This document shows, piece by piece, positions 30,338 to 36,190 of a stretch of 38,438 bases of DNA. The notes below the pieces were generated by a model that saw only the letters and a list, made by a program, of their open reading frames with translations, was not told the origin of the DNA and ran no database searches. The stretch is from a bacterium. Lineage in GTDB: Bacteria; Coprothermobacterota; Coprothermobacteria; Coprothermobacterales; JAADFF01. A program made the position numbers and the translations under genes. Location of the stretch: positions 1 through 38,438 of the forward strand of contig JAMORD010000082.1 in assembly GCA_027063755.1 (NCBI GenBank). The letters are read 5' to 3'. Numbering within the stretch: the first letter of the stretch is position 1; each line of letters begins with the position of its first letter.

Positions 30338-31186
30338 GTGATGAGTATGGATTTACGTATTGTGGTAGATGGTGATGCGGATATACCTGAAGAGTTAGAA
30401 GATAAGGTGGTTTATGTTCCTCAATATGTCATATACGATGGGATAAGCTATAGGGCGACAAGAGAAATGATACTTCGTGATATGGAGTCTTTTCTTGATC
30501 CCGATAAATTGTCTACGAGTATGCCATCTGCTCAAGATTTTTTGGATGCGTTGAATAAGTTAAAGTATCCTGCCCTTGCGATACATGTCAGTAGTGGTAT
30601 TAGTAGCACATATCGCTCAATAAAGGCTGCTGCCGAGGTGGCTTCTGTGCTTGATAAATTGTATATGTTTGATACTAAAACGGCAGCGTCTGGCATAGGA
30701 GTATATGTGTATTTTGCTTACAGCATGCTAAGAAAAGGGCATAATGTGGAAGAAGTTTATGACATGCTTGTTGCTCTTCGGGATAATGAAAAAGAGAAAA
30801 CATATGCTGTTGTGGGAGATATAAGATTTGCCCTTCATGGAAGAAGAGTTAATGGACTTGTTGTTGCTGCGGCTAAGGCTATGCGGTTTGTGGTTGTTGT
30901 TTCCCCTGATGATGAAGGATATCTACAGGTTATTTACAAGACAATGGGTAGAAAAAAAGCATTACGATATCTTGTAGAAAAAACGATAAATAGACTTAAG
31001 AATGCTAAAAAACCTATTGTTGGTATATCTCATGCATGGGCCGAAAGAGATGCTGATATGATAGCTAAGACACTGAAACAAGAACGTCCTGATGCGTATA
31101 TGTTTGTGACCTACATGAATCCCACACTTGTTGCCCACGGTGGGAAGGGAACATTGGCGGTTTCTGTACTTGATGCCGATGTATAG
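30338..31186 (+). CDS. DegV/FakB family fatty acid-binding protein (copy 1)
   Basis: 'LRIVVDGDADIPEEL', 'STSMPSAQDFLDAL', 'HVSSGISSTYRSIKAAAEVA', 'FDTKTAASGIGVYVYFAYSML'. Confidence 0.88.
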   Translation: MMSMDLRIVVDGDADIPEELEDKVVYVPQYVIYDGISYRATREMILRDMESFLDPDKLSTSMPSAQDFLDALNKLKYPALAIHVSSGISSTYRSIKAAAEVASVLDKLYMFDTKTAASGIGVYVYFAYSMLRKGHNVEEVYDMLVALRDNEKEKTYAVVGDIRFALHGRRVNGLVVAAAKAMRFVVVVSPDDEGYLQVIYKTMGRKKALRYLVEKTINRLKNAKKPIVGISHAWAERDADMIAKTLKQERPDAYMFVTYMNPTLVAHGGKGTLAVSVLDADV

Positions 31187-31219
31187 TTAGTTGTAATTAA
31201 ATATTAGGGGGGATGCGGA

Positions 31220-32062
31220 GTGTTGTCTATTGTTGTTGATGGTACGGCGGATGTACCGCCACAGCTCAAAGATACTATTACTACTGTTCCGCTTTATGTT
31301 GTTTTTCGGGGAAAGAGTTATAAGGCAACAGAGGAAATGCTTTCTGGTGAGATAGAGCATATGCTTGCGCCTGGAGAGATTTCTACCAGTATGCCCACAA
31401 CAAATGATTTTATGGAGGTTTTTCAGGCTTTACCTAAGCCTATACTTGTTGTGCATGTCAGTAAGAATATTAGTGGAACATATCGTGCTATACATGCTGC
31501 TATTGAGGAATTGGGCTATCAAGATGAGGTTATACCATTTGATACATTGACTGCGGGCACAGGTATCGGACTGTATGCTTGGCTTGCTTACGAACTAGAT
31601 AGGCAGGGGAAGTCCGTGGATGAAATTGTTTCTATATTAGCGGAAATGAGAGATAACCGGAAGGAGCATACATATTCTGTTGTGGGAGATGTGCAATTTA
31701 CGCTTAATGGTGGTAGAGTTTCAGGTTTTGCCGGTTTGGCCGCTAGAGCTATGCGTATTGTGATTACCATATCACCCGATGAAACTGGGACTCTGAAAGT
31801 TATAGGGAAATCTTTTGGTAGAAAAAAGGCATTGAGACTTCTTCGTAAGCACATGGCGGAAGCAATAGAGAATGCCAAGAGGCCTATCGTTGGTATATCC
31901 CATGCATGGTGTGAAGAAGATGCTTATCTGCTTAAAGATTATCTTCATGCCCTCCGACCAGATGCAAAATTTTTCCTTACCACTATTAATGCAACTCTTA
32001 TTGCCCACGGTGGTAAGGGAACAATTGCCGCCTCTGTTTTAGATACAGCTCCGTACATGTGA
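31220..32062 (+). CDS. DegV/FakB family fatty acid-binding protein (copy 2)
   Basis: Paralogue of the preceding gene: 'LSIVVDGTADVPPQL', 'ISTSMPTTNDFMEVF', 'HVSKNISGTYRAIHAAIEEL', 'FDTLTAGTGIGLYAWLAYEL'. Confidence 0.88.
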   Translation: MLSIVVDGTADVPPQLKDTITTVPLYVVFRGKSYKATEEMLSGEIEHMLAPGEISTSMPTTNDFMEVFQALPKPILVVHVSKNISGTYRAIHAAIEELGYQDEVIPFDTLTAGTGIGLYAWLAYELDRQGKSVDEIVSILAEMRDNRKEHTYSVVGDVQFTLNGGRVSGFAGLAARAMRIVITISPDETGTLKVIGKSFGRKKALRLLRKHMAEAIENAKRPIVGISHAWCEEDAYLLKDYLHALRPDAKFFLTTINATLIAHGGKGTIAASVLDTAPYM

Positions 32063-32886: not shown

Positions 32887-32920
32887 AAAAAAGGGGCACA
32901 TAGGTGCCCCTTTTTGTTTT
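32887..32920 (+). terminator. Intrinsic terminator after the SIMPL gene
   Basis: AAAAAGGGGCACATAGGTGCCCCTTTTTGTTTT. Confidence 0.9.
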
Positions 32921-32960
32921 ATTGGGTGCTATTCTATATTTAGGTAAGGAGGTTGATATA

Positions 32961-33368
32961 GTGGAGTTTAAACATGGTATTTATCAGAGACTTGCTGCTG
33001 GAGAGTGGTTGGTTTATCACTTTGCCCGTGATCTTGAGTCTGTTCATGGTGAAGGTATATGGAGTGAGGTGAAGTTTTTTTCAGAAAAACATGCTAAGCG
33101 TCTTACTGATATTGTTGTATCCATGAGGATAAAGCCTCTTCCCCCCAGTATGTGGCATTTATATAGCCCCTCTCCTCCCAAAAAGTGGTATGATGCTTTA
33201 GTAGATAGGGATATTGCATTTAGAGAGGTATATGAGGTGGTTATAGGTTTTTCTGATTTTTATTCAAGAATGCTAAACAGGTATCAGTTTGATGAAGAGT
33301 TTCTTGTTAGGCATAAAGAGGATTGGGATAAAGTAAAGAAAAGAATGAGGAATCTCATGGGGAGGTGA
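32961..33368 (+). CDS. Small helical protein, possible ferritin-like fold (GTG start)
   Basis: SD AAGGAGG then GTG at 32961; helical 'LAAGEWLVYHFARDLESVHGEGIWSEVKFFSEKHAKRLTDIV' with an ExxH-type motif. The track start at 32904 lies in the terminator. Confidence 0.6.
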   Translation: MEFKHGIYQRLAAGEWLVYHFARDLESVHGEGIWSEVKFFSEKHAKRLTDIVVSMRIKPLPPSMWHLYSPSPPKKWYDALVDRDIAFREVYEVVIGFSDFYSRMLNRYQFDEEFLVRHKEDWDKVKKRMRNLMGR

Positions 33369-34315
33369 ATAGTGTGGTTATTTGTGTAACACTGAATCCG
33401 GCTATTGATGCCTATCTTGAGGTGAAAAAATTTATACCAGGTTCTTTTCATAGAACCGAAAACGAAAGGTACAGTCCTGGTGGAAAAGGGTTTATTGCTG
33501 CTGAAATTTTGATGAAACTGGGCTATAATGATGTTCTTTCTACTGGCTTACTTGCTGGTCGTAATGGTCTTGCGTGGGAAGATGCTGCCACTCAGAAGGG
33601 AGTGCCGGGTTCCTATGTGTATATTCACAATGGCAATACCCGTAGGAATATTCAGATTGTTGATCTTGCTGAGAGTACTGTTACTAGTATTGGAACAAAA
33701 GGACCTGTAGCTTCCCCGCAGGATATAGAGAAATTGAAAAAGAGACTGAGACCACACCTTGGGAGAGCTGAATGGATAGTGTTTGGAGGTTCTTTACCTA
33801 GTGGTTTATCTTCTGATACATACTATGAGCTCATAAAATATTTCAATGGTCTTGGTAAGAAAACGGTTATTAATGCCACCATAGATTATTTACCTCGTGC
33901 TGCCGATGCTATACCTTTTATGCTTGTTGAAGATCCTAAGGAGGGAGAAGAGCATTTTGGAGATATTGAGGTGCACTCCTTGGAAGACGAAATAAAACTT
34001 GCAAAGACTTTGATGGATAGAGGGATTCAAATTGTTAGTTTGTCTTGGCAAATCATACACAATGTTATTGGAGTCTATGGAAATGTATATCATGTTCAGC
34101 TTGTTGATCCTCATATTTTCTCTGTTGTTGGTGCCAATAGTGCTTTAACAGCTGGCCTTATACATGCAGTTATATCGGGTATGGAAGGTCCCGATATTGC
34201 AAAGCATGCTGTGGCTACAGCTTATGCCGTGGCAACTAAACTTGAACCCGATATAGATGGTATTGTGCAGGTGCAGAAAGTGTACCAGTATGTAGAAGTT
34301 GAAAAGGTGCTCTAA
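33365..34315 (+). CDS. PfkB/FruK-LacC family sugar kinase homologue with altered catalytic motif (putative pseudokinase)
   Basis: 'VVICVTLNPAIDAYLEVKKFIPGSFHRTENERYSPGGKGFIAAEILMKLGYNDVLSTGLLAGRNG' and 'WIVFGGSLPSGL' are FruK-like; the position of GAGD reads 'VVGANSALTAGLIHA'. Confidence 0.85.
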   Translation: MNSVVICVTLNPAIDAYLEVKKFIPGSFHRTENERYSPGGKGFIAAEILMKLGYNDVLSTGLLAGRNGLAWEDAATQKGVPGSYVYIHNGNTRRNIQIVDLAESTVTSIGTKGPVASPQDIEKLKKRLRPHLGRAEWIVFGGSLPSGLSSDTYYELIKYFNGLGKKTVINATIDYLPRAADAIPFMLVEDPKEGEEHFGDIEVHSLEDEIKLAKTLMDRGIQIVSLSWQIIHNVIGVYGNVYHVQLVDPHIFSVVGANSALTAGLIHAVISGMEGPDIAKHAVATAYAVATKLEPDIDGIVQVQKVYQYVEVEKVL

Positions 34316-34328
34316 GGGGGTGAATGTT

Positions 34329-34802
34329 GTGCTTGTAAAAGATATATACATTAGAGACCTTACGGCTATTACCGACGATATGACAGTCAGGGAGGCCATA
34401 GAGATACTGTATACACACCGTTTGCCCGGTGTCCCACTTGTTGATGAGGACTTCAAAGTAATAGGTTATGTTAGTGGTTCTTCTATCTCCGATGTTATTA
34501 TTCCTGACTATGTTAAGAGGCTTGTTAGCACCTCTTATTTTCCCGATATAGGCATTTTGGCCAAGGAGTTAGCCAGTATCATGGATAGTCCTGTTAGTGA
34601 GGTAAAAAAATGGACTCCTGTTGTAGAGGAGGAAGATACAGACCTCACAGCACTAAAACTGATGCTTGAGCATCACAGAAATGTGTTGCCCGTTGTTGAC
34701 GAAGAAAATAGACTTCGTGGTGTTATCACAAAGGAGGCTATATTATCTGCAATTGTACATATGATAGATAGTGAAAACGATAAAGGTAAAGCTGACAAGT
34801 AA
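34329..34802 (+). CDS. CBS-domain pair protein
   Basis: 'ITDDMTVREAIEILYTHRLPGVPLVDEDFKVIGYVSGSSISDV' and 'TPVVEEEDTDLTALKLMLEHHRNVLPVVDEENRLRGVITKEAILSAI'; GTG start after AAGGGGGTG. Confidence 0.9.
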   Translation: MLVKDIYIRDLTAITDDMTVREAIEILYTHRLPGVPLVDEDFKVIGYVSGSSISDVIIPDYVKRLVSTSYFPDIGILAKELASIMDSPVSEVKKWTPVVEEEDTDLTALKLMLEHHRNVLPVVDEENRLRGVITKEAILSAIVHMIDSENDKGKADK

Positions 34803-34831: not shown

Positions 34832-36136
34832 ATGCATATTACATTTACTATTGCTGTGATTGCACTTTTTACCTTAGTTTATGTCTTTTTAATGACTGAT
34901 ATGAGGCATAGAACGGCTGTGGCTATGCTTGGTGCAGCAGCTACCGTATTTGTAGCTGAGGTATTTTATAAAAATACTGAGGATTTTTGGTCTTTTATTG
35001 ATTTTGAAACTCTTGCTTTGCTTATGGGCATGATGATAATTGTTGGAGTTTTAGCCCATAGTGGCTTTTTTGAATATCTTGGTGTGAAGACTCTACAATT
35101 GTCTAAAGGTGATCCGAAAAAATTTTTCTTTGGCATGTTTTTTCTTACCGCTTTTACATCTGCTTTCCTTGACAATGTTACAACTGTTCTGTTGATGACC
35201 CCTCTTATTCTGTATGTTACGGCTATTCTTGAGATAGATCCTATGCCGTTTTTGCTGGGAGAGATAATGGCTTCTAATATTGGAGGTACTGCAACTTTGA
35301 TTGGCGATCCTCCGAATATTATGATCGGTACAGGTGCCGGTTTATCCTTTATGCAATTTATTAAGTACGAGACACCAATTAGCATTTTTAATGTTATTAT
35401 GTCAGCAATTTTTATCTATTATATATTTAAAGACAGATTTGCTTTAAAGTATCCTGAGAATATACAAAATAAGATAAAAGAGTTTGACCCCCAAAAAGCT
35501 ATAAAGGATAAATATCTAATGCGTGTTGGTTTGATTATATTGTTTTTCGTTATAGTGCTATTCTTCCTCTCAGATGTCATTGGTGTCTCAGAGGCTGTTA
35601 TTGCATTACTTGGAGGTTCATTGGCATTGTTCCTTATTATGGATCATGAGACAGTGGAAAAAGTCATTATGCAAGTAGAGTGGACAACGCTGTTATTCTT
35701 TATGGCTTTATTTATCATTGTTGGTTATCTTAATTCAACTGGTGCTTTGGATATGGTTGCCCGGTGGATGGTTAAGATTAGTGGCGGTAATAAGATTGTG
35801 CTTGTGATGGTCATACTGTGGGGTTCTGCTATTATCAGTGCCTTTGTAGATAATATACCCTTCACTGCAACTATGATACCTGTTATTAGTGCCCTTATAG
35901 CAAGGAATCCATCTCTGAATACTCATCATGTTCTTTGGTGGGCTTTGTCTATGGGGGCATGTCTTGGTGGCAATGGCACGGTTATTGGTGCCTCTGCTAA
36001 TGTCGTTGTTAGTGGTATAGCCAAGAAAAATGGTATAGATATCAACTTTAGAAATTATGCAAAAATAGGGGCTCCTGTTACCATTTTTATATTGCTTATC
36101 AGTAGCGTATATCTGTATTTCTTGGCCACTCTGTAG
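34832..36136 (+). CDS. ArsB/NhaD-type ion transporter (IT superfamily permease)
   Basis: 'SAFLDNVTTVLLMTPLILYVTAILEIDPMPFLLGEIMASNIGGTATLIGDPPNIMIGTGAGLSF' and mirrored 'SAFVDNIPFTATMIPVISAL...CLGGNGTVIGASANVVVSGIA'. Confidence 0.92.
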   Translation: MHITFTIAVIALFTLVYVFLMTDMRHRTAVAMLGAAATVFVAEVFYKNTEDFWSFIDFETLALLMGMMIIVGVLAHSGFFEYLGVKTLQLSKGDPKKFFFGMFFLTAFTSAFLDNVTTVLLMTPLILYVTAILEIDPMPFLLGEIMASNIGGTATLIGDPPNIMIGTGAGLSFMQFIKYETPISIFNVIMSAIFIYYIFKDRFALKYPENIQNKIKEFDPQKAIKDKYLMRVGLIILFFVIVLFFLSDVIGVSEAVIALLGGSLALFLIMDHETVEKVIMQVEWTTLLFFMALFIIVGYLNSTGALDMVARWMVKISGGNKIVLVMVILWGSAIISAFVDNIPFTATMIPVISALIARNPSLNTHHVLWWALSMGACLGGNGTVIGASANVVVSGIAKKNGIDINFRNYAKIGAPVTIFILLISSVYLYFLATL

Positions 36137-36154: not shown

Positions 36155-36190
36155 AATAAAAACAGGGGAGACGCATGTCTCCCCTGTTGT
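36155..36190 (-). terminator. Intrinsic terminator (minus-strand T-run) between convergent genes
   Basis: AACAGGGGAGAC-gcat-GTCTCCCCTGTT perfect 12-bp stem; minus strand continues GTTTTTATTATC. Confidence 0.75.

Follow-up and report, generated by a model that had tools for sequence, protein, structure and literature searches.

A PfkB-family sugar kinase homologue lacking the catalytic aspartate is conserved across the order Coprothermobacterales as a likely pseudokinase

Sugar kinases of the PfkB family carry a C-terminal G/AxGD motif that holds the catalytic aspartate, and a homologue from which this residue is missing raises the question of whether the gene has been damaged, whether the protein is an enzyme by other means, or whether it has taken on a role without catalysis. 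Such a homologue is encoded in a stretch of 38,438 nucleotides (contig JAMORD010000082.1, referred to here in its entirety as the window) from a draft genome (MAG) of 1.5 Mb that is 88% complete. An earlier, sequence-only reading of the window described a FruK/LacC-like PfkB homologue with GANS in place of GAGD, and proposed that it is a likely pseudokinase. Here, we compare this protein with its orthologues and related kinases, and consider what it may do.

The listed open reading frame (33365-34315, plus strand) is intact and opens at GTG 33365. GTG 33374, located 9 nt inside it, is probably the better start, because a Shine-Dalgarno sequence (GGGGAGGTGA) is present in both members of the genus and the orthologues of the sister family begin at the same residue (Table 1). 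Residues are numbered from 33365, which places GANS in frame at codons 256-259. The protein matches PF00294 (PfkB) over residues 14-293 with 48.9 bits relative to a curated cut-off of 25.8 (7e-13), and its best curated models, both matched over their full length, are those for 1-phosphofructokinase (TIGR03828, FruK; 172.4 bits) and hexose kinase (TIGR03168; 171.4 bits), each scoring below the NCBI cut-off (292 and 216.4, respectively). An AlphaFold model (pLDDT 80, pTM 0.84) has the ribokinase-like fold with a lid, and is closest to PDB entry 2ajr (TM 0.87), with LacC at 0.82. The FruK/LacC-like assignment of the earlier reading therefore holds, and because the profile matches extend along the whole length, the GANS motif is aligned without ambiguity. 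Annotation pipelines would probably label the gene as a 1-phosphofructokinase, crediting these thermophiles with a fructose/tagatose step that is probably impossible for the protein; a canonical FruK was not found in the window's genome or its congener, so this mis-annotation would alter the reconstructed metabolism.

Table 1. Features of the putative pseudokinase gene and its four-gene unit (positions in the window)
Feature	Positions	Strand	Remarks
Terminator-like hairpin	32888..32915	+	Upstream of the unit
orf154	32904..33368	+	No family match; stop overlaps GTG 33365
Shine-Dalgarno-like GGGAGGTGAA	33360..33369	+	Serves start 33374
Putative PfkB-type pseudokinase gene (FruK/LacC/TM0828-like), 313 aa	33374..34315	+	From profiles; start from Shine-Dalgarno and orthologue starts
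Substrate loop PGGKGFI	33476..33496	+	GGKG retained; invariant Asn/Asp after GGKGx lost (Ile44)
GANS codons GGT GCC AAT AGT	34130..34141	+	In place of anion-hole/catalytic GAGD
Two-CBS-domain protein, 157 aa from GTG 34329	34329..34802	+	Directly next in the unit
CitMHS/ArsB-like ion permease	34832..36136	+	Final gene of the unit
Terminator-like 12-bp palindrome	36161..36188	-	End of the unit; near-palindromic; strand is that on which it was found

Orthologues were identified by protein search in all seven genomes of the order that were searched, which form two families: the window's genome and G001 (family f1), and G002-G006 (family f2). The G001 protein is 94% identical to that of the window, and the five from f2 are 36-37% identical. 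The motif reads GANS in six of the seven and GANA in one (L007), and the catalytic aspartate is absent from all. When the seven were compared with 32 canonical related kinases, both the anion-hole Gly258 and the catalytic Asp259 were found in every kinase and in none of the orthologues, the glycine being replaced by asparagine in all seven. At position 44 in the substrate loop the kinases have asparagine (26) or aspartate (6) and the orthologues have isoleucine without exception, changing GGKG-I-[N/D] to GGKG-[F/V]-I; an otherwise invariant glycine at position 173 has also been lost. The codons of GANS and the departure after PGGKG were thus reported correctly in the earlier reading, and neither of the sequence-based objections that it raised against itself applies: the translation contains no other GxGD, and no orthologue in either family has a normal GAGD. 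The sugar-phosphate side is retained throughout the seven, including NPAxD (Asp15), Arg30, the N-terminal GG motif of the family (GGKG; Gly40, Lys41, Gly42), and Arg93. Among PfkB matches over cut-off in nine genomes of the phylum, and leaving aside a few weak partial matches that are ThiD-like in appearance, all sugar-kinase-type paralogues outside the orthologue set keep GxGD. One of these paralogues, at 532-1455 of G000:C176 in the window's genome (L043), is a divergent FruK/LacC-like protein with an intact GAGD and with GSKGAN instead of GGKGxN.

Where a single motif is missing from a draft MAG, an error in sequencing or assembly, or a gene in decay, is a conceivable cause. However, the motif is common to seven genomes, two of which have only one or two contigs, and comparison of the window with G001 gives a dN/dS of 0.033 (Nei-Gojobori, own script), a rough value given how close synonymous sites are to saturation. 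Purifying selection on the gene is nonetheless clearly strong, and the gene product is 94% identical between these two genomes relative to 84% for MnmE, 83% for YidC, and 75-88% for the MnmE/YidC/DegV neighbours as a group. Error and decay are thus refuted by the seven orthologues and the dN/dS ratio, and we give them next to no credence. At the level of sequence, the protein has the hallmarks of a pseudokinase, as had been proposed: catalytic residues lost in a conserved manner from a protein otherwise constrained.

A conserved active site could also be a working one. Among orthologues only about 37% identical, V188, DPK, S225/S227, NVIG, GAN, and AL are invariant, and segments facing the active site have 45 of 76 positions invariant in the clade versus 28% overall, although these segments were hand-picked from the alignment and overlap motifs already conserved, so that the enrichment is indicative only. 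The protein could therefore be an enzyme still, with a PfkB fold whose remodelled site (DPK, SxSxxxxxNVIG, GAN[S/A]AL) catalyzes either some other reaction or a slow transfer of phosphoryl groups that needs no aspartate base. Against this, L007 has alanine at the aspartate position, showing that no side-chain chemistry is needed there, and the anion-hole glycine is asparagine in all seven. We regard continued catalysis as unlikely, and its absence as well supported by the residues lost.

In a maximum-likelihood tree of 41 proteins the seven orthologues form one clade (support 100/100) on a long stem (1.11), which is sister (94/93) to aspartate-bearing proteins of the phylum G057 – presumably Thermotogota – that resemble TM0828 of Thermotoga maritima; L043 and a paralogue from the sister family (L063) together form one long branch. 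TM0828, a 'possible 1-phosphofructokinase', is also the closest solved structure by sequence (2ajr; phmmer, 3e-29). To our knowledge its substrate has not been established, and nothing relevant to it was found in the searchable literature. Like the putative pseudokinase, TM0828 lacks KPNxxE and SxGxxG, but unlike it, TM0828 and its G057 relatives retain the aspartate of G[V/T/A]GD and the asparagine of GGKGxN. The losses specific to the stem are therefore the catalytic aspartate, the anion-hole glycine, the substrate-loop asparagine, and Gly173. Because KPNxxE and SxGxxG are already degenerate in these aspartate-bearing relatives, their loss is uninformative as to catalysis, and we rejected it as further proof of a dead site. 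No member of the clade was found among 129 genomes of three other phyla (G057, G029, and G035), where the best score was 151 bits versus at least 507 for members, and a search of 251 genomes of a fourth phylum, itself uncontrolled, gave no match at a strict cut-off of 1e-40. Genome-contig searches with single-sequence patterns recovered the same-genus copy only, and plasmid records contained only ordinary FruK-like matches with up to 32.5% identity.

The neighbourhood was the other source of functional clues in the earlier reading, which described an operon with a CBS-domain protein and an ion permease, and that arrangement is indeed present. In the window's genus the gene lies in a four-gene unit – orf154, the putative pseudokinase, the CBS protein, and the CitMHS-type permease – between strong terminator-like hairpins, and the unit is kept in both genus members. 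The listed start of orf154 lies inside the upstream hairpin, so its true start is probably downstream of that; orf154 is the fastest-evolving gene in the neighbourhood, with 72% identity and a dN/dS of 0.17, also a rough ratio. Further upstream (30338-32062), mnmE of a yidC-jag-mnmE cluster is directly followed by a tandem pair of degV-like genes, each about 50% identical to the counterpart of the other.

The four-gene unit could be a local signalling device in which the CBS protein reads adenylate, the putative pseudokinase reads sugar phosphate, and the permease is the target. Its presence between hairpins in both genus members is consistent with this, as is the CBS protein itself, which is 99% identical to the same-genus copy (about one change in 147 aligned codons) at near-saturated synonymous sites, and is unusually constrained for a lineage-specific gene. 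In the sister family, however, the putative pseudokinase gene is solitary, flanked by a PBP gene (divergent) and bpsA (convergent), in the order serS-pbp-pseudokinase-bpsA-acpS-nnr-dnaG (names read from translations), and no CBS homologue was found when looked for there. No partner is conserved in gene order with the putative pseudokinase across the two families, and because the CBS-permease operon is confined to the window's genus, the CBS protein is rejected as a general partner. The operon does not account for what the protein does across both families, and we think a local signalling unit very improbable. What had been read as hints to a role thus stand for the window's genus only: the altered motif is conserved in every orthologue, and the downstream CBS gene is not.

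A partner could instead be encoded elsewhere in the same genomes, with the protein acting as a structural or regulatory subunit that pairs through its lid with an active PfkB paralogue and modulates it. Dimers mediated by the lid are common in the PfkB family (PMC5405513), and paralogues with active motifs are present in the same genomes. Nonetheless, a GAGD-bearing FruK, which would be the nearest candidate for such pairing, occurs in G002, G004, and G005 alone. It was not found in G003 (95% complete) or G001 (93%), and the putative pseudokinase occurs in all seven; the remaining paralogues (psuK and the C176 type) are distant. An obligate FruK partner is unlikely given this patchy distribution, and we consider the subunit explanation as a whole quite improbable.

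We favour a ligand-binding regulator, because the sugar-side residues have been kept and the former nucleotide site is conserved. By this account, an ancestor of the order possessed a PfkB sugar(-phosphate) kinase similar to TM0828, which would have lost the catalytic aspartate, the second anion-hole glycine, and the substrate-loop asparagine, and retained its fold together with Asp15, Arg30, GGKG with Lys41, and Arg93, whose roles in holding the sugar phosphate are those known from LacC and Pfk-2. The protein would bind a phosphorylated sugar or a similar anion without phosphorylating it, the lid would close on the ligand, and the conformation of the lid or dimer would be the signal by which the state of the ligand is passed to a protein partner. 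Replacement of the aspartate by asparagine in E. coli Pfk-2 removes most of the activity with only a mild effect on substrate binding (PMC5405513), and binding without phosphorylation would be expected here from the residues that remain. Conservation rather than drift of V188, DPK, NVIG, and GAN[S/A]AL suggests that the former nucleotide site has a different ligand or partner, or serves to hold the lid. The ligand, the conformational signal, and the partner are elements that we infer, and we consider it reasonably probable that the protein is a pseudokinase fixed long ago, which serves as a sensor or regulator by binding a sugar phosphate or a similar anion and signalling to a partner. A bolder version, in which a PfkB kinase that had lost its catalytic aspartate and anion-hole glycine gave rise to an order-wide and essentially core bacterial sugar-phosphate sensor, whose remodelled and conserved nucleotide site binds a different ligand or partner, is conceivable, and we advance it tentatively.

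In either version, a sugar kinase would have been cleanly turned, throughout the order, into a protein that is presumably without catalytic activity. The protein resembles FruK and LacC (TIGR03168, TIGR03828, and TIGR01231) in its full-length profile match, NPAxD, GGKG, TR, and fold, and differs from them in that it has lost the catalytic aspartate, anion-hole glycine, and substrate asparagine. No bacterial PfkB pseudokinase was found in the searchable literature on PfkB/ribokinase pseudokinases. The nearest precedent is provided by plant FLN1 and FLN2 of the plastid RNA polymerase, which have the PfkB fold and a non-metabolic role, and are without detectable kinase activity (PMC5405513, PMC3409070). 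These are plant proteins of the fructokinase branch, however, and presumably of independent origin. The parallel with yeast Gal3p is an analogy in manner of working only, as its fold superfamily – that of galactokinase (GHMP) – is different. Gal3p is a relative of sugar kinases that binds its ligand and signals without catalysis (PMC3409070). If the protein described here is a sensor, it offers a small and presumably thermostable system for asking how a sugar kinase turns into a regulator, with the GAGD paralogue in the presumed C. proteolyticus genome as a control, and it would be a bacterial counterpart of both Gal3p and FLN1/2.
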